A DNA stretch of 64,000 nt from Diacronema lutheri (lineage: Eukaryota; Haptophyta; Pavlovophyceae; Pavlovales; Pavlovaceae), in NCBI GenBank assembly GCA_019448385.1, contig JAGTXO010000017.1, positions 518,501-582,500 on the forward strand, in the 5' to 3' direction. Numbering within the stretch: position 1 is the stretch's first letter; each line of letters opens with the position of its first letter. Shown piece after piece: positions 1 through 18,477 of this stretch. Position numbers and translations under genes: made by a program. The notes beneath the pieces were generated by a model. The model saw only the letters and a program-made list of their open reading frames with translations. It searched no databases and was not told the DNA's origin.

Positions 1-1
1 C

Positions 2-3000
2 GCCGACAAGGGCAAGCGCAGGCGCGCCAGAGCCAACGACGACCCCGTCGACGCGGCGCGCAAGGCCGTGGGCAAGGCGGAGGGCAACTGCCGCAAGGCA
101 GCCCGCCGGCTGCACCTCGCTGCACTGGGCGAGGAGGAGGCGCAGCAGCGCGTGCTCGACGCCGAGGCGGCGGAGCAGCTGGCGCGCTCGCGCGAGCCGG
201 CCGGCGGCTGGGTAGGCAGCGCGCGCGCGCGCGCGCGCGCCCCGCCGCGCGCGCGCCCGTCGATTGGCGTGCGCGCAGCGCAGAACGGCGCGCCAGCTCC
301 GTCACCTGCGCGCCGCCGCGCCCGTGCCCCTCGCGCGCAGGGGCGCCCTGCGGACTTGCGGCTGCAACAGGCGCACTTTGGCATTCGCGAAGATGCCGAC
401 GCGGATGTGCGCCGCGCGCACGAGGCGCTGCGCCGGGCGAGACAGGGTGTGGCGTGCGCCAAGGCCAACGTGCGGCAGATGGAGGCGGCGTTGCTCAACG
501 CGACGCGCTGCGCCACCGCGGTGCTCGCGCCGCGTGGCGTGCCGGAGGGTGACGAGCAGGCCGCGGCGAGAGAGCAGGCGGCGCTGGACCGGGAGGCGCC
601 GCCGGCCGCGGAACGCGCGGCGCCGACGGCGCGCTCGCCCTCGGAGCTGCCGTCCGAGTGGGGCCCGCCAGCGGTCGGCCGGCGCCCGACGCCGCGTGCA
701 CTGTCGCACGCCGCGGGGTGCGGGGACGACAACCCGTTTGCGCCGCTCGCAACCGTCAGCGGTGATTGGTCGCCCACGCCGAGCTTGCGCCCGCCGTCCT
801 CGCCGCCGCGGCAGCCGCCGTCCGACCGCCGCAGCGCGCAGCGTCGCAGCGCGCGCGCGCGGCCGCCGAGGCCGACCGTTTCACCCGAGGAAGCGCTCGC
901 AGCCGAGCGCCAGGCGCGCGCGCTGTCGGAGCAGGCGGAGCAGAGGCGCGCCAAAAAGGCCGCCGCCAAGGCCGCGCGCCGCGCCGCGCGCGCCGCCGAC
1001 AAGCGGACGGCGCGCGTCGTCCACGCGTGCGTAAGCGCCGCCTTGCAGCGCGTCTGCACGAGCGTCGCCACGGGCACGCCGCTCGCCGTGCTCCGCGAGC
1101 GCGCCGAGAGGCCGCGCGCGCCGAAGGCCGCGCCCGCGCCACCACGCCGCGCAGCGGACGGCGGCCGCGCGCTCCGCCACGCGCGCCGTGCGGCCGATGC
1201 GGCGGCGGAGCGCGAGGCGGCGGTGGCGGCCGACGCCGACGAGCGGTTCGAGCGGCAGCCCTCCGCCGCCCGGTTCGACGGCGGCGATGGCGGCGGAGGC
1301 GGCCACGTCGAGGCGAGCGCGCGACCGCGCGCCGGCGAGGCCGGCGAGGCTGGCGCGCACGGCGCGCCTGGCGCAGCGGGGCCCCCGGCGGCGTCGCTCG
1401 CGTCGCGCAGCCCGTGTGATGCGCGGCGCACGGCACGCCTCCCGCACGCACGCGCCGCAGCCACCTACGCAGGCAACGGCGGCTGGGGTGGCAACGTCGG
1501 CGGCGACGTGTGCGGCGATTGTTTCGGCGGCGGCGGCGTCCGTCGCGACGCCTGCGGCGGCGGCGACGCCACCTGCGGCTGCGGCGATGGCGGCGTCGGT
1601 GCTGGCGCTGGCGAGGCCCCTGCACACGGTGCGCCGGCGCGCGCGACGGCGTCGCGCTTGCTGCGCTTGCTCGGCGCGCCACGCGCCGTGCTCGGTGCGA
1701 TGGCGCACGCCGCGGCCGTGTTGGCGCGCGGCGTGGCCGCAGCCGTCGCTGGCGTGCGCGCCGCCGCGCGCGCCGTGCGGCGCGCGCGCCGCCGAGCGCC
1801 TTGCGCGCGCCGCACGGCTGCGCGGCGCGCTCGCAGCCCGCCGATGCGCGACGTCGACGGCGCCCTGCGGCCCTCACCGTCCTGGCCGCGCACACGCCTC
1901 GTCTGCGGCCGGCGCCTCGCGCCTCTGCGCCGCGCGGGCGCGCGCCCGCCGCCCGCACACGCCGCGCCGAGTTCCCGCGCGCGCGCTGCGCAACCCGACA
2001 GCGACGCGCCGGCGTGCGCGCCGCGGCGCTCGGCGCCTGTCGGTGCGCCGCCGCGCGCGCGTGGCCTGTGCGCGGCGCGCGCACGGCGCGTCCTCGACGT
2101 CGCCGGCCGCGCGGCGCGGAGCGCGCGCCTCGGCGCGCGCATCACGCGCCAGCGCACGCCGGGCCCGTCATCGGAGCCCTGCACGGCCGAGAGCGGCGAC
2201 GGCGCGGGCGCCGGCGGCATCGGCGCGGCGGCGCCTGGCGCGGCGACGATGCGCGCCACCGGCGCGCGCGCAGCGCGCGCTGCGGCGGCGGCGGTCGGTG
2301 GCGCCTCGCGTCTCGCGCGCCGCGCGATGGCAAGCGCCGCCGCCGCTGCCACCTCCATAGCCGGCGCTGCCGCCTCCACCGTCGCCGCCGCCGCCGTTGC
2401 CATCGGCGCGGCCGTCACGTCACCGGCGTTCGCCGCGGCGCGTGGCATGGCGGCCGCATGCGTCGCTGCCTGCGCCCGCCCCACCGCCGCGCAGGCGGCC
2501 GCGTCGCGCGCGCTCGGCGCGCTCTTCGTGCTCGTCGACGCGGCCGACGCGGCGGGCGACAGCGACGCCGCGCTCGGCGCGCTCGCGGCCGCGGTCGACG
2601 CGACGGAGCTGCGCCCGCCGCCGGCCTTTTGGCGCGCGGGCCGCGCCGCGGCGTACGCACCGCGTCCGCCGCCCCTCAACTCGGCGCGGCCGCGCTACAA
2701 CCGGCGCGCGCGCGCACCTAGCCCTCCCGTCGCGGCCGCGCGGCGCAATCTCGAGCGCGCGGTGCGCGAGCTCACGCGCGCCGCGCGCGCTGAGCGCGAG
2801 CGCGCGCCGGCGCCGCGCGGCGCGCGCGGCGGCGTGCTCCACGCGCTGCGCGCGTCGCTCCCCGTGCACGCGCGCGTTGCGCTCGGCACGGACGCGGAGC
2901 TGCGCGCGGACATTGCCGCGTTCGCGCGCGCGCGCCGCGAGCTGCACAGCCTCACCGACGCCGAGGTGGCGGCGCTCGCGCGCCCGGACGGGCCGCCGCT

Positions 3001-5808
3001 GCCCGTGCGGCTCGCGTGCACGGCGGTCGCGCGCGCGCGCGGCGTGACCGTGCTGCTCGACATCGTGCCGCGCGGCGGCGGCGCGCCCGAGCGGCTCGTG
3101 TGCCGCGCCCGTCGCCGCGGCGCCGCCACGCGCACGCCACGGCCGACAGCCGCCGTTATCGCGCGCGCGCCTTGCATAGCGGCGCGCGTTGGCCACACTG
3201 AGCCGGCGCGCGCGTGCGCGGGCGGACCGATCGGGGTCGTGCGCCTCCGTTCAGCGCGCCGCCCTTCTTGGCGTGGGGCGCGGCTCGACGTGCACACCCG
3301 CGAGCGGCTGGCCACACCGGTGCCATGCCACGTCGTGGCCTGCGCCGCCGCCTCGGCCATCGGCGCGTGCGTCGCTCGCGCGCGGCTTGGGCTTGCACGG
3401 CTGGCGCGCGCGTGGCCCTGCGCCTCCGCTCCACTAGCCACTGCTGCTGTCGCCTTCGCGCCTGCCGCCGACGGTGTTTTCCCCGCCGCACTAGCCGCTC
3501 CTGCATCCGCCTTCGCGCCTGCCGCCGATTTTCCCGCCCCACTAGTTGCTCCTGCATTCGCCTCCGCGCCTGCCACCACCGGCGTTTTCCCCGCGCCACT
3601 AGCCGCTCCCGCTGTCGCGTCCGCGCCTGCCGCCGCGGGCGTGTCTTCCGCCCCACTAGTCGCTGCCGCTGCCGCCCTCCAGGCCGCCTCCGACGGCGTT
3701 TTCCCCGCCCCACTAGTCGCTGCCGCTGCCGCCCTCCAGGCCGCCTCCGACGCCTTTTGCCCCGCTCCACTAGCCGCTGCCGCTGCCGCCCTCCAGGCCG
3801 CCTCCGACGGCGTTTTCCCCGCGCCACTAGCCGCTGCCGCTGCCGCCCTCCAGGCCGCCTCCGACAGCGTTTTCCCCGCCCCACTAGTTGCTCCTGCATT
3901 CGCCTCCGCGCCTGCCACCACCGGCGTTTTCCCCGCGCCACTAGCCGCTCCCGCTGTCGCGTCCGCGCCTGCCGCCGCGGGCGTGTCTTCCGCCCCACTA
4001 GTCGCTGCCGCTGCCGCCCTCCAGGCCGCCTCCGACGGCGTTTTCCCCGCCCCACTAGTCGCTGCCGCTGCCGCCCTCCAGGCCGCCTCCGACGCCTTTT
4101 GCCCCGCTCCACTAGCCGCTGCCGCTGCCGCCCTCCAGGCCGCCTCCGACGGCGTTTTCCCCGCGCCACTAGCCGCTGCCGCTGCCGCCCTCCAGGCCGC
4201 CTCCGACGGCGTTTTCCCCGCCCCACTAGTTGCTCCTGCATTCGCCTCCGCGCCTGCCACCACCGGCGTTTTCCCCGCGCCACTAGCCGCTCCCGCTGTC
4301 GCGTCCGCGCCTGCCGCCGCGGGCGTGTCTTCCGCCCCACCAGCCGCTCCTGCATCCGCCTTCGCGCCTGCCGCCGATTTTCCCGCCCCACTAGTTGCTC
4401 CTGCATTCGCCTCCGCGCCTGCCACCACCGGCGTTTTCCCCGCGCCACTAGCCGCTGCCGCTGCCGCCCTCCAGGCCGCCTCCGACGGCGTTTTCCCCGC
4501 CCCACTAGTCGCTGCCGCTGCCGCCCTCCAGGCCGCCTCCGACGGCGTTTTCCCCGCCCCACTAGTCGCTGCCGCTGCCGCCCTCCAGGCCGCCTCCGAC
4601 GCCTTTTGCCCCGCTCCACTATCCGCTGCCGCTGCCGCCCTCCAGGCCGCCTCCGACGGCGTTTTCCCCGCTCCACTAGCCGCTGCCGCTGCCGCGTCCG
4701 CGCCCGCCGCCGCGGGCGCGTCTTCCGCCCCACCAGCCATCGCCGCCGCGCCCGCCGCCAACGCGCGCACCGCCAACGTGCCCGTTGCCAACGAGGCTAC
4801 CGCCACCGAACCAGCCGCCCTTGAGCTTCCCCTCCAACCCGCCAACTCGGCGCTGCTTGCGTGGGCGGGCGACGCGGCTGCGCGCCGGCTGGCCGCCGCC
4901 GCCGCGAGCGCCGGCCTCCCGCAGGCAGAGGTGGAGCGCATCGCCAGCGGCGACATGCTCGCCTCAACCGTCGACGCGTGCTGCGAGGTCGTGCTGCGCG
5001 TGCACGGGCAGGCCGGCGGCGGGCATGTCTGCCACGTGCCGCTCGCCGCGCAACCCGCGGTGTTCCAGGACGGCGCCGAGCGCGCCGCGCTGCTGCACCG
5101 CCTGCGCAGCGAGGCGACAACGCAGGCTGTCATCGGCGTGTGGAGCCCGTCGGACGAGCGCGGCGGCGCGGGCGGTGACGACGGCGCGCAGCTCGCCTCC
5201 GGCCATTTCACCGCGTTGCGCCTTGTGCGCGTCGCGCGCGCGGGCGAGCATCGCTACGACGCGGTGCTCGTCGACACGCTCGCGTCGCCCTGCAGGCAGG
5301 CGCTCATGCTCGCCAAGGCGATAACTGCCACGCTGCACGCGGCGGGTCTCGACATTTCGCGCGTGCGCCGCGCGCTGCTGCTCAACGAGGCGGCGCAGCG
5401 TGGCGCGACGTGCGGCCTCGCGATAGTGGGCGCGCTCAACGACGCGCTCGCCGCGGCGGGCTGCTCGTCCGCGCCGCGCACGTTCAGCGTGGCGGACATG
5501 TACGCTGTCGGCGAGCGCCTCCGCGTCGCGCTGACCGGCGCGGCCAGCGATCGTGCGCCGGGCGGCGTCTGCGCGGTCACGAGCGCGGTGCGTGGCGGGG
5601 GCAGCCCCGATCGCGCCGAAACGCCGCCGCAGACGCGCGGCGCCAAGGCCGCCGCTGGCGTCACCGCCGCCGCCACCGCCGCCGCCACGCCGCCGCCGCC
5701 CGCGCTGGGCGCCGCCGCCGCCGCCACCGCCGCCGCCGCCGCTGCTGCCGCCGCCGTGGCCGCGCCGCCACCGCCGCCACCGCCGCCGCCGGCCGGCGAC
5801 GAGGGCGA

Positions 5809-5848
<40 letters not shown>

Positions 5849-8800
5849 GCCGCGCGCACGTTCTTGAAGCTCGCGCCCAGGGCGCGCGCGGCCGCCTCGG
5901 CGCGTGAGGCGTTGCGCGCCGCGTGTGCGCGCGCGGACGCGGCGGCGTCGTCACACGCGTCGGCGCCGCACGCGCCCGCCGGTGCGCGCCGCCGGCGGCG
6001 CGCGGGCGCAGGCGAGCTGGCGCTCGCGGCTGCGCGCGCGCTCGCCTCGACGGAGCACGGCGATTTGACGGACGACGCGCTCGAGGCCGCCGTCGAGCAG
6101 GAGCTGGGCGACGAGCGCGGCCAACTGCTGCTGTGCACGCGGGGCGCAGCGGCGCAAAGGCCCGCGCTTTGCCGGCTCCTGAAGCACGCGTGCGCGTCGG
6201 CGCGCGCGGCGAAGCGCGCGCAATTCACGGTGTTCGTCGTGCGCGCGGCCACGCGCGGCGAGCGGGGGGGCGCCGCCGCGAGGCGCGTGGACTCGGTGGT
6301 CGAGCTGTCGTGCGCGCTGCACGAGAAGGCGGGCGCGCTCGGCGGCCTCCAGCGCGTCTGTGTGCGTGGCTTCGCCCTCGAGCGCCGCCGGACACTCGAC
6401 GCTGGCGCCGAGGCCGGCGCGTCCGCCATCGGCCAGGACGAGCAGGTCGAGGCAGAGGCGGGCGAGGCGTGCGTCGCCGGCGTGACGATGGCCAAGCAGC
6501 TGCGTCAGTTTGCCGAGCAAGCTGCCCGCGACGACGTGCTCTTCCACGTCGCCGTGTCCGAGGCCGACGCCCACGCCCGGCTGGCGCGCGTTGCGGGTGA
6601 CGATGTCGGCGCGTACAGCGTCGTGCTCGCAGTCGCCGGGCTCGTCTGGCTGGCCAAGGCCGACGAGGTTGCGCCGGCGGCCGCCCAGCCCGCCGCCGCG
6701 CCGCCCGCCGCCTCGCCTGCTGCCGCCACGTCCGCCGACGCCGAGCGCGACGCCTCGCCTTCCGACCGCCTGCGCGCGCTGACGCTCGCCGTGCGAGTCG
6801 CGCTCGCGCGCGGCGTGCTGCGCCACCTCCTCGCCGACGCGTCGCCGGGCGCGTCCGCGACCGCTGGCGGTAGTTGCGCGACGCCCGTCGAGGCGGCCGC
6901 GTCCGCCGCCGCGCCGCCCGCCACGGGCGTCGTGACGAGTGGCGTTGCGGCGGGCGCTGTGGCGGCCGCACCGGCTGCTGCGGGCGGGGCGACGGCGGGT
7001 GCATCGCCCATCACGCGGCCGGCGAAGCGCGCGCGGCGCACGCTCACCGCCGCTCCAGCCGCCTCGGCCGTTGCGGCCGCTGGAGGCGCACGCGCTGGCG
7101 CACGCGGCGCGGCCGGCGCGCCTCGCGCGCGCGCCGCGCGCGCGCCGGCCGAGTACGTCTGGCTTGCCATCGCGCGCCGGATGCTGGCGGCGCGACACGC
7201 GGCGGCCGCGGGCGGCGACTTTGTCGCGTCGTGCGTCGCCGCGATGCAGGCCGAGTACGGCGACGGCTGTGCCGTCGTCGTCGGCGACGCGCCTGGTGAC
7301 GCCTTGGTCGAGGCTGCGGCGGCGGCGCTGCTCGAGGGCAAGCACGCGGCGGTGAGCCTCGGCTGCGTCGACCGGCCGGCGGTGCTCGTCGTGCAGCGCG
7401 CCGTGGACGCGCCCACGTCGCGCGTGCACGGGTGGTGCGCGCACGCGGCGGGCGCCGCCGAGTTTGACGAGGGCGCCGCGCACGGCGTGTTCAACGCGAT
7501 CGTCGAGCGCGCGTGGGCGCTGCGTCCGGACCCGGCCGACGGCAGCCCGCCGCCCACGCGCACGTGGGAGGTCGAGCGCATCGCTGACGAAGCGCCCGAC
7601 CAGGCGGGCGTGGCCGCGCTGCGCGTGCTCTACGCGCTCGTCGCGGCGCACGGCCGCTACCGCTCGGCCGCCGCGCTCTTTGGCGCGCTCGCGCAGCTGC
7701 ACGCGCCCGACGCCGCCGGCGCGCGCGCGGAGGTCGTCGCGGCGGCGTGCGCGGAGCCGCCCGGCGCGCGGCCGGGCGCCGCGCCGGCGGCCGCGCGGGA
7801 CGACGCGAGGGAGCGCGCATGGGAGGGCGCTCGGATCGCCGCGCTCGCCGTCGGCGCGGACGCTGCGCGCAGGCGTGTCGCGCCCGTGCGCGCGCTCGTC
7901 GACGCGCTCGGCACGCCACCGACCTCGGCGATCACGGGCGGGCCGGCGGTGCGGCTCGCGGGCGCGGGCGACGGCGGCCACGGTGCACGGTGGGTGGGCG
8001 GGCAGGCGGCGACGCCCGCCGAGCAGCTGCCGAGGGAGCTGCTGCGCGCCTACCACGAGGCGGTGCTGTGCGTCACGCCCGGCAGCCTCCAGCTCGACTC
8101 GGCGGCGCTCGACGCGGTCACGCGGCCGCGCGAAAACGACACGCTGGAAGGCCTCCTCGCGCGCGTCAGCTGGCAGTGCGGCGCGAGGGCGAGCACGTGC
8201 GCCATGCTCGCCACGTTTTCCGAGCAGGCGGGCACCGGCTCGCGCGTCGCGCTCAAGGCCCTCCGCACGAGCTCCGACCTGGCCGGGCTGACGGCGGCTG
8301 CGGTCGGGCAGCAGGCGCCGCAGACGCCGCCGCCGCCGCTGCTCGTGATGCTCGGCCGCTGCCCCAGCCCGCTCGTCGGCGGCGGCCTCTTCCCGCCCGA
8401 CCGCGCGACGGGCGAGCCGGCGGTGCACGCGGCGACGTCCGAGCTCGCCGTCGAGCTGCTGCGCGACGCGCGCGCGCTGGCCGGCACGGACGGGCGGCTC
8501 GTCGTGCTGTGCCTCGAGGCGTCCAACCCGCTCTGGTTCTGCCCCAAGGTGCGCGAGCTCGAGCTGCCGCGGACGCGGTCGGACGGCGTGCGCGCGTCCG
8601 GCTGCACCTGCCCTGCGACGTGCAGCGATGCGCGCGGCGCGGCGGGTGGCGCTGCCCGCGGCGCATCGACGCGGCCGGCGGCGCGCGCGATCAACAAGGC
8701 GGTGCTCGACCACTTCGTCGCGCTTTTCGGCCGCGAGGGCTTCGCGACCTTTGAGTTTGCGGGCGGCGGCGAGGCGAGCTGGCTGTGCGACAGCGCGGCC

Positions 8801-11800
8801 GGCAAGACGACCGTCGCGGCGTGCGCGTCGCTCCCGCCGCGCATGGGCGATGGGCAGCTGGCCATCCGGCGGCACACGCTCGGCACGGGCGCCGACGCGC
8901 CGGCGCACGCCGTCGTCTCGCTCCGCGTCGCGCACGTGAGCCACGCCATCCGCCGCGCGGCGGACGACGGCGGCGCGCGCGCCGAGCGGATGGCGCGCGC
9001 CGCGCGCGCGTTTTGCGATGTGGCGGCCGCGCTGCGCGTCGACGCGATCCTGGCGGAGGTGCCCGAGGACCGCCCGACGGGCACGCCCTTCCTTGGCGGG
9101 CTGCTCGAGTTTTGGAACAAACGCCACGGGAGCTCGACGGCGCCAGCCACGCTCGCGCTCGGAGACGTGCGCGAGGTGGCCAAGCGGACGGCCGACGCAG
9201 CGGCCGGCCGAGCGGACGAGGTCCCTGCGGCTGGCCGTCCGCAGGTCGCGGCGCGCGCGTGCGCTGGCGCGATTGGCGGCGGCGCGGGCGCGGCGGGCGC
9301 CTCGGACGCTGCGCCCCGTGCACTGGCGGGCACGTCGGGTGCGCGCACGGACGGCGGCCCTGCCGACGCACCGCGCCAGCTGGAGAGCCGCTACGGCGAG
9401 GCGAGCAAGCTCGACCTACCCCAAGATTCCACTACGGGCTGCGTCCTCGACGCTCGCGAGGCCCAGGACCGCGCGCGCGTGCCTGCTGCGCCCGACGGCA
9501 CAGCGCTGCGCCGCGTGCTCGACGCCGTCGGCGCGGGCGCGCCCGCGCAGCGCAGCCCGCGCTGGCACGACGAGCGATGGGAGGAGGTCACGGGCAGCAA
9601 GGTTGGCGACGTCGTGAACGACAACGCCGGCGTCGCGCACGAGACGCTCACCGACGAGTACGTGCACCGGCGGCGGCGCGAGGTGCGGACCAAGGCGACG
9701 ACCGCGGGCATCCTCGGCGAGGCCGTCGCGCTGCGCAAGCTGGCGGCCGCGTACGGCATCACCGTCGTGTGCAACCTGCCGATGGTGCGTGCGGACCCGC
9801 ACGACAAGAGCGCGCCGTTCGCCTTCTCGCCGGACGGGCTCGCCATCCTCCCCGAAGACAACGAGCAGGTCCTCGTCGAGGTGAAGACGCTCACCAAGGC
9901 GGACGCCAAGGCGCACGAGGACGGGCCGCCGCAGCCGCACCGCGATCAGCTGCAGCTCGGCATGCACGTCCTCGGCGTGCGCAAAGCGCTCTACGTGCAG
10001 TACCTCAGGCACGAGGACCGGATCGTCGTGCACGTCGTGACGCGCGGCGCCGGCTGGCTTGCATTCGCGCAGCCGAGGGTGCAGGCCTTCTGGGCGCGCG
10101 TCGTCGAGCGGCGCGCGCGGCTCGAGCGCGCGCGCGCCGACCACCCGGCTGCGAGCCGGCGGCACCGGCGGCAGCAGACGCCGGCCGGGCCGCCGCTCGT
10201 GCTCGCGCTGGACGGGCGCATCCCCGCCGCGCGCGCCGCCGCGCTGCACGCCGTCGCGCACGGCACCGCGAGCGCGGCGGCGGTGGCGGCGACGGCGGCG
10301 ACGGGCGACGCGACGGCGTTGCAAGACGCGATCGCGGCGCTGCGCGCGCCCGTCGGCAATGCGGCGATCGACAGCGCAGCGCGTGCGGAGCGCGCGGCCG
10401 TCGAGCGGGCGATCGCGTACCTCGGGCAGCCGGCAGGCGACGCCGCCGCCCGCGGCACGGCCGAGGCGGCCGAGGAGGAGAGGACGGTCGACGCCGACAT
10501 CTGCGCGTTGCTGCACCAGCTCGGCGCGAGCGTGGCGCACGTGCACGTCGAGGACGCGGATTGCGTCACGCGTGAGCACTGGGGCGGGGCGGTGCTCGCT
10601 GCAGCGGGCGACCCGTCGAGCGCCCCCGCCATTTCGAGCGTCATCGTCGCGCACATCGTGCGGCTCGCCGGCTTTGGCGTCGAGCTCCCGCAGTCGATTC
10701 GCGTCGCCCCCAGCACGGCTGACTGGCACGAGGGCTGGCTCGACGTGCAGTGCGTGCTGCTGCGCACGCGCCGGCGCGGGCGGCGCGACGACGACTTTGT
10801 GGCCGTCGTCAGGCGCGGTGGGCGCTGGTTTGCGTGCGAGCCCGGCCGCGCGCGGCGGCTGCAGTGGCGGTCGGTCCTGCGCCGCGCGCGCGGCGGCGTC
10901 GACGGGACCGGCGAGGAGGCGTTCGCGGTCGTCTACGTGCGGCGCGGCGACGCGGCCGGCGACGCGGCTGGCGACGCGCAGGCCGAACGGGCGCGCGGCG
11001 GGCGCGCGCGCAGGCGCACGCGCGGCGGCACGCGCAAGCGCAAGCGCGGCGCCTCCGCCGGGCTCGAGGCGGCCGCGCCCGCCGGCGCGCCGGCTGCCGC
11101 GCCCGCCGGCGCGCCGGCGGGCGCTGCTCACCGCCCGCCCGCCATGCGCGCGACGGTCGCCGCGCGCACCACGCGCTCTGTGACCGACGCGCGGCACTCG
11201 GCGCCTGCCGCCACGGTTGCACCTGTCTTCGACTGGCGCGCCGGCCGCCCGCCCCCCGCCGCTCGAGCCCGCCACCCGCGGCCGCGTGGGCGCGCGCCAC
11301 CGGGCAAGGCCTGGGACAGCGTCTCGGGTGCGTGGGCGGACAAGCCGACTGGTGCTGCCGTCGCCGGCGCGCCGCCGCCGCTGCCGCCCGCCGCCGCGCC
11401 GCCGCCCACCGCCGCGCCGCCGCCCGCCGCCGCGCCGCCGCCCGCCGTCGCGCCGCCGCCCGCCGCCGCGCCGCCGCCGCCGCCGCCACCGGCGGCGCTC
11501 GGCCGCCGGCAGCACGTCGGCGCGGGCGGCAGCGCGGCGGGCCGGCGGCTCGCGGCCATCGCACGGCGGCAGCGCGGCGTGCGCGCGCCGCCGCCCGCCG
11601 CGCGCTTCCTCGCCACGCTGCCGCCACCGCCACGCGACGGCCTCGCGCGCACGAGCAAGCAGGCGCGCGCGAGGCGCAACGCGGACGGACGGCCGGCGCA
11701 CGCGCGCGCGGCCAACGCGCGCGCCTTCTACCGCGGCGTGGAGCTCGGCGTGCACGCGACGCGCGCCATCGTCGACGCGCGCCACGCCGACCTGCCGCAG

Positions 11801-14800
11801 GCCGTCTTCGTGGCGGAGGCGCGGGCGATCGTCGCGCGCTCCGCCGGCGGCGGCGCGCTGCTCGCGCCGGACGACGTGCGCGACCTGTGCGACGCGCAGA
11901 CGGACGCCGATCGCGCTGCGATCTGGGCGTCGGTGGGCGCGCACGAGGCGACGCGCATCTTCGCGCTCGTCACGCGCAACGCGAGCTTGGCGGGCGCGGC
12001 GCTGCTCGTGCTGCACACGCCGGCGGGCGCGCCGGCGCGCGCGCTCGGGCTCGTGGCGACGCGCTCGCGCGCGCCGTCGACGGGCGCGCCGCGCGACGCG
12101 CACAGGGCGCTGGTGCAGCGGTTGGACGTGCTGATGGACGCGATCGTCGCGGCGCGAGGCGCGTCGCCGCTCGAGCTCGAGCTCGCGCTCGCGCCCGAGC
12201 CGCAGAGCGCGTGCAACGCGCGTGCGGCCGCGCTGCTCTGCCTGCAGGCCGTCGCGGACGCGAGCGGCCGTCCCGCCGCTGAGGACGCGCTGGCCGCGCT
12301 CGACGACGCGCGCGGCATCGACCGGCACTGCCACGCCGTCCGGCAGCAGATCGAGGCGAAGCTCGCGTGGCGGCGCGCCGACGGCGCCGTCGGCGTTGAC
12401 GGCGCCGACGGCGCGCCCGCGCTCGCGCCTGCCGCCGCACCGCCGGCGTGCGCGCCGGCGCACGCTGCCGGCGAGGCGGCGGTCGACCAGGCGATCGTCA
12501 CGCGGGTGCGCGACGCGCTGCGCGCGTGGGCGACGACTGGCACCGCGCCCAGCGCGGCGGTGCTCGACGACGCCTGCGCCGCGTACACGGCGCGCGCACG
12601 CGCGCGCAAGGACGCGCGCACGGCGCTGGGCCCGACGCGCGCGGCCGAGCTGCTCGCCGCGGCCGCGCGCGGCGGAGCCGACGGGGCGGATGCCGCGCGC
12701 GCGCTGCTCGGCGGCACGCCGCGCCTGCTCGTCGTGCTCCTCTGCGTGCCCGTCGCCGCGCCGTCCGGCGAGCCGCCGCGCCCGGTCGGGCTGCTCGTCG
12801 CCGACCGGCCGACGGACGACTCGCGCCCGGCCGCGCTCGTGCGCTACGACTTTGCGCCGCTCGACGCGGACGTGGCCGTCGCCGTCGGCGCGCATGCCGT
12901 CGCGCTGGCCAGTGCGATCTGGCCGCTGCTCGCGGCCGAGGGGGAGCCGCGGCCATCGCCCGTCGTGCGCTCGCAGCCGCGCGGCGGCGACGATGGCGCG
13001 CGTGCGCTCGCAACGTTCGCGTGCCTCGACGCGCTGATGACCGCCAGCGTCGGCGCGCACGGCCTCGCGGGCGGCGCGGGCATGCTGCCCGCGCTGGTCG
13101 CGCGAGGCGCCGCGGCCGCCCAGCGCGAGCGGCAGCTGCGCGCGGCCGCCGAGAGGCTGGGCGGCACGGTCGCTGGGTGGCCGGACACGGGCGCGAGCGC
13201 GGCGGGCGCGAGCGTCGACGAGGAGGCGCGCACGTACGAGGTCGAGGCGGTCGTCGACGAGCGCCGCAAGGCGGGCAAGAAGGTGACGTTCCAGTTCCGG
13301 ATCAGGTGGCGGGGCTACGACGAGAGCGCCGACACGTGGGAGCCCGAGGCCAACGTGAGCAGCGACCTCGTCGCCCAGTTCCGCAAGACGCGCGACGAGC
13401 AGAAGCGGCGCGCGGGCGTATCGGGCAGCGGCAGCGGCGGCGCGGGCGCGGCGTCGGCATTGGCGTCGGCGCCGCTTCGCGCGCACGGCGAGTCGGGCGC
13501 CGCGGGCAAGCGCGCCGCGGCGGGTGCCGCCGCGAGCGCGCGCGACGCCGCGGGCGCGCGCGCGCCGAGCGTTCCCCGCGCGCGCGGCGTCGAGCGCGCG
13601 CGCGTGGACGAGCCCGCTGCGCCGAGCGCGCGCGCCGCCGGCGGCGCGACGGCGCGCACGCGCGTCAGCGTGCTCCCGGGCTTCGTGGTCAAGCGCTCGA
13701 CGCTCAACGCGGGGCCGCAGGCGGTGACGGCGCAGCCCGGTGCGCGGAAGGAGCTGCGGCGCATCGCGGCGGCCGTGCACAGGCTCACGACACAGGCGTA
13801 CCGCGTCATCAACAAGGTGGTGCGCGACGAGGCTGCGGTGGCGAGCGCGCAGGCCGTCGGCGCGGCGTCGGGCGGCCCGTCGACCAGCGTGCACACGTCG
13901 ACCACGATGGACAAGGGAACCGTCCGTGCGATCTTCTCGGCCATCGGCTGGCACAAGGACGAGAGCACGTACGGTGCAGCGCCCCGAGGCAAGCCCGCCG
14001 AGCAAGCCGCCGCGCAGACCAAGGCGGCGACGGCGCGCGCCGTCGGCGAGATGGCCGAGGGCGTCCAGCCCGTCTGCGCGGTGGGCCTCACGGAGATCCT
14101 CGAGGCGGAGGCGACGCAGGTGTCCACCGCGTGCCTGATGCATCCATCGCGCGTCGTGAACGGGCTGCTCCGCGACGTCGTCCGCGCGGCAGTCGAGCGC
14201 GACGAGGCGCTCGTCGCGCTGCCCGAGATGCAGCGAAACGCGCGCGTGCGCGAGCTGTGCGAGCGGCTGCTGCGCGGCGACGTGGAGGGCGCGCGCGTCG
14301 GCTGCCCCGCCGCGCTCGACCGCCACCTGCCCGACATGGTCCTCCACAAGATCGACTACAAGTGCACGCCCACGAAAAGGTGGAACTACGACCGGCACAC
14401 GACGCGCTACTTCCTCGTGCAGATCCGCACCCTGCAGCACGTGGCCGAGGGGCAGGCGCTGCTCTGCCGGCTCGCGCACATCCACACGCAGCTGACCGGA
14501 CGGCCGCCGCGGTACAATGTGGCGCCGCTGCGCACGCACAATGTGCGCGCGAGGCGTGGCTGCCGCTGCCGCCGCCGAGCGCCCAAGCGCGCGCGCCGCC
14601 GCCGTGCGCGCCGCCCCGCGGCCAGGTTGGTCACGCGCCCGCGCGCTCGCGCGCCGCGCGCTGCGCGCAGGTGCCGCGCAACGTGCGCCTCGCCGCGAGC
14701 GCCATCTGGGTGACGCTTTCGGATGACGAGCGCAAGGAGCTGCGCGCGCGGCTCAAGGCGCTGGACCTGCGCGACCACGATGGCGAGCCGATCAAGTGGA

Positions 14801-16395
14801 CAGGCACAAACGGCAACACCCCGCCGATGTCGGACGTGCGCGTCAGGTACGCGGTCTTTGCGACGCGCTTCGACATCTCCAACCGCGTCTTCGACTACGC
14901 CGGGCGCGAGCGGCCGCCGGCCGATCTGCCGTGGCACGCGCGGCGCTCGTGGGTTGGCCTCGCGCCGCTGCCGCGCGTGCCGCTCCCGGGCCGGCAGCCC
15001 GTCAAGTCGGTGGTGACAGATGGCGTCGCCGTGCACGCCGTCGGGACCGTCCTCGTGCCGAAGGCGCAGGCGCCGGCCGGCGGCTCGGGCGTCCTGCACC
15101 GCTGGCGCCGGCCGGACGGGCGCATCGCCGTCGCGCTCGGCTCCGAGCTGCGGCGGGCGATCGACGTCGAGGCGGCGGTCGTCGTCGCGGCCGACCCGAA
15201 CATGGGCAACATCACCACCTACTCTGCGCACGTCGGGCGGGCGGCCGTCTGGCGGCAGTTCACGCAGCGCGCGCGCGCGCGCGCCGCGGGCTTTGCGCGC
15301 GAGACGGCCAAGACCAACGCGGCGCGGCGGCGCGTGCGCAAGGACGGGCGCGGCGAGGAGTTCAGCGTGGAGGCGGACGAGGCGCGGCTTGGCGAGGCGC
15401 ACAGCGCCAAGGTGCTCGGCGAGGGCGAGTTCCACGCCTTCCACCGCGAGAGCGCGCGGGTGCGCGAGCGCGCCGCCGAGCACGTGTACGACGCGCCGGC
15501 GCGCCGGAAGGAGCGCTGGCGGCGCGACAGCGGCGGGCGGTCCAACGCGGCGCGCGTCGCCGAGGCGCTCATCGCGGCGCACTGTGTCGACGGCGTGACG
15601 CGCGACCGGCTGCTCGTGTGCGTGGGCAAGTGGCTGCGCGACCACAAGGGCGCGCAGCCCAAGGGCGCGCCGCCCGCCTTCCAGGTGGGGCTGCTGCGCG
15701 AGCTGCGGCGGCGCGGCGTCGCGGCCGTCTTCGTGCCCGAGCCGTACACGTCGATGCACTGCTCGATGCCGCGGCTCGCCAAGGGCGGCAGGCTGCAGCG
15801 CTGCGGCGCGGAGCTCGCGCAGAACCCGCGCCTGCCCGTGGCAAAGGGCGGCACGCGCACGGTGCACGCGCTCGTCATCTGCCCGGCGTGCAACGGCGGC
15901 AAGAAGCCCGTGCACCGCGACTACAACGCCGCGCGCAACATCTTCTACGACGTGCACGACATGGCGGCGCACGCGGCCGGGCGCGACACCACGTCGACGC
16001 CTGAGCGCTTTGCCCTCGTGCTCGCCTGGTGGGCGCGCGGCGAGGTGTGGGAGCGTGAGGAGCGCATGGTGCACGGCGAGGGCGACGACTGCGACGACGA
16101 GTGCGACGGCGACGACGAGGGCGACGACGAGGGCGACGACGACGACGACGACGATGGCAGCGGCGACGGCGGCGGCGGCGAGGGCGACGGCGAGGGCGAC
16201 GGCGACGGAGGCGGCGGCGGCGACGACGACGATGACGGCGGGGGAGGCGGCGGCGGCGACGGCGGTGGCGACGACGGCGGCGGGCGCGGCGGCGGTGGCG
16301 GCGGCGGCTCTCGCGCCCGCACCCCCGCCCGCGGAGCTGCCAGCGCCAGTGCCGGCGGCGGCAGCGCGCGCGGGCCGAAGCGCGGCCGGCGTTGA
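2..16395 (+). CDS. Giant multidomain protein: Ulp1-like protease, YqaJ-like nuclease, chromodomain, Fanzor1 RuvC
   Basis: The first exon is open from the left edge to 14542; a 128-base intron (14543-14670, GT-AG, phase 0) joins it to 14671-16395. Residues are numbered from base 68. A Ulp1/C48-like site shows H1713, D1736, Q1777 and C1782. A PD-(D/E)XK YqaJ-like fold shows E3218, D3256 (SPDGL), E3271 and K3273 (VEVKT) and Q3294. A chromodomain lies at 13231-13400 (IRWRGY, DTWEPE). The Fanzor1 part runs from about 13740 and carries RuvC aspartate D at 15193 (AADPNMGN), glutamate E at 15739 (PEPYTS) and the last aspartate at 15919 (HRDYNAARN). The first 1,100 codons are Ala/Arg-rich and may hide in-frame introns, for example 212-340. 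The length of more than 5,300 residues is therefore an upper bound, and the 5' end is missing. Programmed RNA-guided DNA cutting is known for the Fanzor family; activity here is inferred. Confidence 0.75.
3470..4735 (+). repeat. Coding minisatellite, 57-base unit with 342-base higher-order repeat
   Basis: A 57-base unit encodes a 19-residue Ala-rich peptide (core APLVAAAAALQAASDG, VFP). Variant units occur in a fixed order, so the blocks starting at 3541, 3883 and 4225 repeat every 342 bases (six units). The unit length is a multiple of three, so the frame is kept. The array lies just before the protease domain. Confidence 0.95.
4857..5560 (+). other. Ulp1/C48-like cysteine protease domain inside the giant protein
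   Basis: Within the giant frame the order His-Asp-Gln-Cys is clear: GHFTALRL gives the His, LVDTL the Asp, and AAQRGATCG the oxyanion Gln and nucleophile Cys. This is the residue order of Ulp1/SENP (C48) deSUMOylating proteases. The Gln-Cys spacing is four residues rather than the usual five. Ulp1-like domains are common in eukaryotic DNA transposons such as some MULE and KDZ elements. The role here, either cutting the large protein into parts or removing SUMO, is inference. Confidence 0.6.
5650..5870 (+). repeat. GCC/GCN triplet-rich tract (poly-Ala, poly-Pro)
   Basis: Near-pure GCC and CCG triplets encode runs of alanine and proline between the protease-like segment and the next region of the giant protein. 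This is low-complexity linker sequence. Confidence 0.8.
9600..10080 (+). other. YqaJ-like PD-(D/E)XK nuclease domain inside the giant protein
   Basis: The segment has GILGEAVALRKLA (first acidic residue), SPDGL (active-site Asp), LVEVKT (ExK) and HRDQLQLGMHVLG (Gln motif), in the order found in YqaJ/lambda-exonuclease-like alkaline nucleases used by viruses and some transposons. All expected catalytic residues are present. A helper role in recombination or end processing during element movement is inferred. Confidence 0.7.
13225..13410 (+). other. Chromodomain inside the giant protein
   Basis: The frame reads TYEVEAVVDERRK, then QFRIRWRGYDESADTWEPE, a textbook chromodomain with its aromatic cage positions (Y of TYEVE, W and Y of WRGY) kept. 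Chromodomains in retrotransposon integrases steer insertion toward marked histones. A similar targeting role next to a Fanzor nuclease is inference. Confidence 0.85.
16072..16392 (+). repeat. GAC/GGC triplet tract encoding acidic Asp/Gly tail of Fanzor
   Basis: The C-terminal 100 residues after the RuvC core are almost only Asp, Glu and Gly, then a short Arg/Ala part ending GPKRGRR. The DNA is an imperfect (GAC/GGC)n tract. The basic end could be a nuclear localisation signal. Confidence 0.85.
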
Positions 16396-16815
16396 CGCAC
16401 GGCCGAGCCGCGCAGCGGTCGACGCTTTGCGGGCTCTGCCCAGGTCGCGCGCGGCTGGCGACGCGTGCCGCGCGCGGCACGACCGTGCACGCCGCCACCC
16501 GTGGCCGAGCGCGCCGCACCAGCCGGCCCGCTCCAACCGCCGTGCGGATCACGGACGCTCGCTACGGCTCGTCGGCGCGCGTCACCTGCGCCGGCGGCCA
16601 CGGCGCCGTCTGCTCCGGCCTCGTCGCGAGCAGCCCGACCGCTGCTCGCCGCCCGCACGCCGCCGCAGCAACGCTGCGCGTCGTGCTCCCCCGCTCGCCA
16701 AACGCGAAGAGCTCCCTCTCAAGGACGTCCTTCCGAACGGCCCGCGCTGCACTCGGGGCGCGATCGTGCCCCTGATCGGATTTGGCTTGACCATCTATAC
16801 TAATATAATATAAGG
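16396..16815 (+). other. Region just 3' of the Fanzor stop; candidate guide-RNA / right-end zone
   Basis: About 400 GC-rich bases follow the stop codon and end abruptly in an AT-rich stretch around 16790-16815 (tatactaatataatataagg). In TnpB and Fanzor elements the guide (omega) RNA usually overlaps or follows the nuclease ORF and ends at the element's right boundary. Position is the only evidence; I did not confirm a fold or boundary. Confidence 0.25.
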
Positions 16816-18294: not shown

Positions 18295-18477
18295 GGTCTC
18301 CAGGATACTAACGGCGCTTACGTCAGGACAGCGGGGTCAGCACCAGCTGCGGGGGAATCGAGTAGCCACCAATGTCGTCGATTCTAATTGCTCTGAGATC
18401 GTACTAACAACGAGCTCAGTCAGAGAGCAATGGAGAGCGACTGAGCGAGGCATGACTCCGCGACTCCGCGTGCGAGG

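Follow-up and report, generated by a model that had tools for sequence, protein, structure and literature searches.

Fanzor1 nucleases have been known from algal DNA transposons since 2013, the Chlamydomonas Helitron2 elements CRe-1, -2 and -3 being carriers (Bao and Jurka 2013, PMC3627910). Which role a Fanzor plays for its carrier element is an open question (PMC10432273). Here we describe a giant open reading frame (ORF) of the haptophyte Diacronema lutheri, found in a window of 64,000 nucleotides (contig JAGTXO010000017.1, positions 518,501 to 582,500), which forms the 3' portion of a giant transposon. The transposon family is high in copy number, was active recently and includes derivatives with internal changes. 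As in the CRe elements, a Fanzor1 is carried by a multi-copy algal DNA element with a precise 3' end, and most full-length copies are without target duplication, a rare one having a duplication of variable length (PMC3627910). The present element departs from the CRe elements, as these are described there, in several ways: it reaches 31 kb, encodes a helicase of its own, combines exonuclease and chromodomain in a giant ORF and is without the Helitron2 end structure. The D. lutheri genome paper reports 22.9% repeats, the majority of the annotated ones being LTR elements followed by LINEs, and the word stem "transpos" is absent from its main text (PMC8379373).

The right end of the element was located at window position 16800, where the copies cease matching exactly after ...GACCATCTATAC and continue into differing DNA. 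The left end of the window copy was placed outside the window, about 9.5 kb to its left, at C46:509021 (position 521 of the fetched stretch L025), and most of the 19 left junctions examined read TATATA[C/G]GGCGCGGTCCGG. At these junctions, as at 31 distinct right flanks, the ends are sharp and the flanks differ. Searching the genome (43,492,796 bases, 103 contigs) for exact end tags returned 201 right and 189 left ones. Pairing drew on 100 places each among the left and right tags listed, and at least 66 left tags were paired with right tags (on C27 three left tags share one right tag), leaving 34 left and 36 right tags unpaired among those listed. The paired spans comprise at least 28 of 30.97–31.09 kb, 8 of 29.1–29.4 kb, 8 of 26.0–26.9 kb, 13 of 21.4–21.6 kb and 9 of other lengths, giving main size classes near 31.0, 29.2, 26.3 and 21.6 kb and a full length of about 31.05 kb. 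Paired copies alone account for at least about 1.8 Mb, with the overlapping C27 pairs counted once, and the element is thus a sizeable share of a small genome. Matches between array units aside, the fetched stretches are 96.7–99.8% identical to the window copy. A search with the chromodomain gave 260 candidates, 150 of which were scored; 146 of these carry the score of the element (53.7–55.2 bits), DNA being compared for the fetched loci. The precise ends, the many sites, the discrete length classes and the high identity of the copies indicate a recently active giant transposon family.

In the window copy, about 2 kb of dissimilar DNA (L025:6940-8933) replaces about 7.7 kb of the 31-kb form, and a tandem array is longer than in that form. 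A LINE-like 5' truncation of this copy was considered and ruled out by its true left end and the internal replacement. Exact 78-bp inverted repeats bracket the copy (window 18307-18384 and L025:437-514), which therefore seems nested within another repeat; the flank sequence of these repeats also adjoins other element copies. The non-coding 3' end, a possible source of guide RNA, folds no better than shuffled sequences (z -1.04; 11 of 100 shuffles equalled or exceeded its stability), and an Rfam search of the window, L025 and L020, a stretch of a full-length copy, gave zero matches.

Table 1. Features of the element copy in window coordinates, with the basis of each assignment.
Feature	Position	Strand	Basis
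Transposon copy, window portion (whole copy C46:509021-535300, 26.28 kb)	1..16800	+	Copies stop at 16800; left end L025:521
Exon 1 of giant ORF (5' open at window edge)	2..14542	+	Stop-free frame, codon-position GC
H-D-Q-C pattern resembling C48 (Ulp1) protease, candidate	5204..5413	+	Pattern and shuffles; no profile match
RecE/YqaJ-type exonuclease domain, PD-(D/E)XK residues	9539..10114	+	PHROG 434, 5.1e-16; Pfam YqaJ
Chromodomain	13235..13387	+	PF00385, 45.7 bits; CDYL in PDB
Fanzor N-terminal part, assigned by position	13655..14542	+	In frame with chromodomain; intervening stretch free of Met
Intron, 128 nt, GT-AG, phase 0	14543..14670	+	Splice sites shared in 14 distinct copies
Exon 2: Fanzor WED-RuvC-zinc finger part, acidic Gly-rich tail	14671..16395	+	Cas12f1-like_TNB 2e-6, motifs
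3' non-coding end of element, possible guide RNA source	16396..16800	+	Fixed right end

The original prediction, made from the letters of the window, was of one giant ORF joined by a single phase-0 intron. An open reading frame scan found frame 2 stop-free from window position 2 to 14713 (4903 codons), and the splice sites of the intron, which leads into the frame ending at 16395, are identical at all 15 loci tested, corresponding to 14 distinct other copies. In a departure from the predicted span, window base 2 is the edge of the window and not the start of the ORF: the frame extends leftward to L025:8694 in the window copy and to about L020:4871 in the full-length copy C3, which has about 1,160 extra codons. 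The longest open frame among the matches to the chromodomain, on C11, reaches 6,136 codons. The giant ORF is real as a frame but does not stand alone, being the 3' portion of a transposon copy of 26.3 kb. Codon-position G+C is coding-like (GC3 > GC1 > GC2) across most of frame 2 in the window, weakly so at 1802-2701 and 10802-11701 and not at 2702-4501, a region that holds the tandem array. The array consists of Ala-rich units (window ~3200-4820), and its length varies between copies. Differences between element copies displayed no codon-position bias, and hence no sign of selection for the protein.

Several results point to a Fanzor1 relative in exon 2. The Pfam profile Cas12f1-like_TNB, which covers the TnpB-type zinc finger and RuvC region, matched at 2e-6 (28.3 bits, cut-off 26.3); NCBIfam guided_TnpB remained under its cut-off (0.025), and in a PDB search with the Fanzor part the best Cas12f1 chain had a non-significant E of 0.28. 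The three RuvC acidic residues that had been predicted were all located in exon 2, as D (nt 15193), the alternative E (nt 15739), which stands six residues ahead of the first zinc-finger Cys, and D (nt 15919). The RuvC triad with its alternative Glu, the TDG motif of the WED domain (VVTDGVAV), the C-terminal zinc finger and the final RD are shared with described Fanzor1 nucleases (PMC10711439, PMC10432273), and the spacing from D to TS is 184. The present protein departs from them by a DPN triplet in place of DPG, by an incomplete first zinc-finger pair and by its fusion to a chromodomain. DPN occurs in the window copy and in 12 of 13 other copies, the remaining one having DPT; in the zinc finger CPAC is present, whereas the first pair reads CSMP and is without its second cysteine, leaving one CxxC of the usual two. 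The published motif criteria describe DPG as "near exclusively" found in Fanzors (PMC10711439), not as always present, and the DPN triplet is thus compatible with a Fanzor1 relative. The motifs are kept in most of the 13 other copies, two of which have a frame break or a loss between motifs. On these profile and motif grounds the assignment of exon 2 to Fanzor1 is supported. The N-terminal part (aa 4552 on) had no Pfam match of its own, and an AlphaFold model of exon 2 computed without alignment was too low in confidence for a fold search (pLDDT 36.3).

A chromodomain and an exonuclease precede the Fanzor part. The chromodomain (aa 4412-4462), which the prediction had called a textbook one, matched Pfam well over the cut-off (6e-12, cut-off 25.1 bits), with the CDYL chromodomain as best PDB match (2.7e-11). 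The exonuclease (aa 3180-3371), with the residues SPDG...VEVK...Q in its translation, was likewise borne out by its PHROG match; Pfam YqaJ scored 15.6 bits (0.019) on the whole ORF, under the cut-off of 22, and passed it on the trimmed domain only (22.6 bits), while NCBIfam TIGR03033 gave 8.8e-6, under its own cut-off. Frame and profile matches thus agree with the claim that Fanzor1, chromodomain and exonuclease lie in one uninterrupted frame, here on a mobile element. Between aa 4361 and 4636, a stretch that spans the chromodomain and the start of the Fanzor, there is no Met codon, which argues for one protein if the frame is translated as read, assuming no unseen intron or non-AUG start in between. 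The junction of chromodomain and Fanzor therefore appears to be the firmest part of the fusion. The case for the exonuclease is weaker, since Met codons at aa 3715, 4045, 4346 and 4361 would permit a separate start.

The prediction of a self-contained system failed in that form: other genes accompany the giant ORF, and Pfam scans of element stretches recognised neither a transposase nor a tyrosine recombinase, a reverse transcriptase or an integrase. A PIF1 helicase gene lies upstream of the giant ORF in the window copy and in a full-length copy. At L075:2414-4965 it matched Pfam PIF1 (1.9e-15 and 1.8e-24) and Pif1_2B (6.2e-13); the profile match changes frame partway, suggestive of an intron, and no Pfam family matched residues 1 to ~380 of the ORF. 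In the PDB it matched Helraiser, a Helitron transposase (7lcc), best, with 4e-25 versus 6e-6 for PIF1 itself, and its first part alone matched Helraiser at 1.9e-7. By these Pfam and PDB matches it was classed as an SF1B PIF1-family helicase of Helitron type. Pif1_2B matches recur across the genome in a search that scored 150 out of 160 candidates, that of the window copy being at C46:514357. The full-length copy C3 also contains a UCH-like ORF (Pfam, 4.3e-8). An HUH Rep domain (Helitron_like_N) was not found by Pfam in the element frames scanned, which excluded the forward frames of L025:520-1499 and L075:5606-6043. The sole Helitron_like_N match of the genome (C63:35738-36019, L029) is a possible source of Rep in trans, and the 3.3 kb fetched around it is without the end tags of the element. 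Immediately 5' of the helicase ORF is a palindrome of about 870 nt with arms 95–97% complementary (L025:2519-3405, in the same copy as the window; also L075:1192-2078), containing four copies of an 89-nt unit with a telomere-like (GGGTGTA) run, which could be an origin, a promoter or a nested insert.

A C48 protease had also been proposed in the giant ORF, and the H-D-Q-C order on which it was based does recur, with Ulp1-like spacing. The pattern occurs twice, in the window and, in the full-length copy, some 8.4 kb farther 5' in the frame (L020, from 5198). In shuffles, two sites were found in 0 of 2000 and one site in 3 of 2000, block shuffles giving 0 and 5 of 2000, for a pattern written after both sites had been seen. 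The candidate gave no Pfam match to peptidase C48 at E <= 10 and no relevant PDB match, its AlphaFold model without alignment was too low for a fold search (pLDDT 42.0), and the profile found 9 C48 matches in the genome, far below the copy number of the element. A putative self-processing polyprotein is, on this basis, speculation. A series of six degenerate C48-like repeats was also considered and rejected: in 5 of 45 domain pairs at most 10 of 200 shuffles scored higher (3 of 200 for the best pair), which is not significant given the number of comparisons.

The junctions bear on how the element moves. Target duplication is absent in 10 of the 11 assessable pairs, a twelfth having been left out as its contig ends 2 nt past the element; in the remaining pair 13 bp abutting the ends are duplicated, versus a maximum of 12 in 300 draws of mismatched pairs. 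The helicase is closest to that of Helraiser among solved structures, whereas the element differs from Helitrons in having no Rep in the scanned frames and ends that are not TC/CTRR. Instead of the Helitron signatures (5' TC, and 3' CTRR with a hairpin), the right end reads CTATAC and no perfect 3' stem of at least 6 was found; Helitron2 inverted repeats were not found either, the best inverted match being of 6 nt and equalled in 350 of 500 shuffles. With neither a Rep domain in the scanned frames nor the end signatures of Helitron1 or Helitron2, the element was not filed as a Helitron. By its helicase it is related to Helitrons; a Helitron-like mode of movement is putative.

Our preferred reading, with a probability of roughly 60%, is a recently active, high-copy giant transposon with a Helitron-type helicase at the 5' side and a frame of exonuclease, chromodomain and terminal Fanzor1 at the 3' side, which would spread as DNA by helicase-driven, rolling-circle-like single-strand copying. 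The nicking enzyme would either have diverged past recognition or be supplied in trans. TnpB is thought to aid copying by recombination through a cut of the sister chromosome (PMC10432273). By analogy with TnpB, the Fanzor may take as its guide an RNA transcribed from the element's 3' end into the right flank; cutting of the empty site would then promote repair from an occupied copy. The RecE-like exonuclease could resect the ends for this repair, the chromodomain could tether the complex to chromatin that bears methylated histones, and the C48-like modules might cut the protein itself or have SUMO or ubiquitin as their target. In a stronger version, which seems to us unlikely, RNA-guided breakage and resection tethered to chromatin would be united in a single protein that exceeds 6,000 residues and cleaves itself: the Fanzor would cut the empty site, the fused RecE-type exonuclease would resect, the chromodomain would pick histone-methylated chromatin and built-in cysteine proteases would release the parts, with a Helitron-type helicase copying the element.

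The giant frame might instead hold several genes that share a frame and that splicing, alternative start sites or differing transcript ends would separate in the RNA, the element still being a transposon. GC is near 80%, and in a very GC-rich genome stop-free linkers are cheap; antisense frames are likewise stop-free for up to 1778 codons. The Met codons listed above would permit a separate gene for chromodomain and Fanzor, and the coding signal is weak in parts of the frame. A single frame that stays open for 4903 codons in the window and up to 6136 elsewhere, together with the Met-free passage from chromodomain to Fanzor, speaks for the fusion, so that separate genes are a minor though real possibility.

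In place of rolling-circle copying, the element could move by integration of a circle at a TATA-like core, a Crypton-like form of recombination. TATA stands at both junctions (ATA at 19 of 19 left ends and TATAC at 31 of 31 right ends, the latter found through a tag whose last letters are TATA). These junctions also fit a circular intermediate closed at this core, and the near-absence of duplications is equally in line with such a route. Pfam scans of the element found no tyrosine recombinase, and the Helitron-like helicase and the one 13-bp duplication also speak against such a route, which makes circle integration quite unlikely. An endogenised large DNA virus, or an element derived from one, is very improbable. 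Large DNA viruses often encode helicases, exonucleases and UCH-like proteins, and the exonuclease of the element matches phage families best (PHROG); yet Pfam scans of the element found no capsid, packaging ATPase or polymerase, and viral contigs contained no relative of Fanzor exon 2, the exonuclease or the helicase N-terminus in a search that reaches close relatives only.

The element can also be compared with chromoviruses, the chromodomain LTR retrotransposons. Both have a chromodomain on a protein of a mobile element, in chromoviruses presumably for chromatin targeting. The present element differs from them in lacking reverse transcriptase and integrase in Pfam scans and in that its chromodomain adjoins a Fanzor. 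Among the open PubMed Central papers listed in our searches, none describes in its title or abstract the element or a fusion of chromodomain and Fanzor. Nor did these papers yield a helicase-bearing element of 31 kb on which a Fanzor1 shares its frame with a chromodomain and a recombination exonuclease. The predicted combination of RNA-guided DNA-cutting, chromatin-reading and DNA-trimming modules appears unusual. With a Fanzor1 in frame with a histone-mark reader and a recombination exonuclease, on an element that is apparently recent, high in copy number and also equipped with a Helitron-type helicase, the hypothesis that an element spreads through RNA-guided cutting plus homologous repair becomes directly testable in a cultured alga. 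RNA data for D. lutheri have been published (PMC8379373).

A second, more canonical class of Fanzor1 was found in the same genome at L097 (C71:952101-953300), with DPG, TDG and CxxC; it is a homologue of the Fanzor of the element (28% identity, E 1e-8), with at least 14 matches at 43.9 bits or more, that is L097 and at least 13 other places. At four or more loci (C25, C71, C75 and C78, by eye) a Pif1_2B match lies 5.6–18.8 kb upstream of the second-class Fanzor on the same strand, which suggests that helicase plus Fanzor is a recurring plan.

Telomere targeting was considered for copies at contig starts and dropped. Eight of the 11 starts examined (C1, C5, C6, C10, C12, C26, C29 and C80; L009-L016) begin at the right end of the element, as expected of an assembler at a long repeat, and the element thus limits assembly. 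C45 opens with a CCCTCA/CCCTAA-like array (L065:1-330) that is probably telomeric, and 2.2 kb inside lies a copy of the element.
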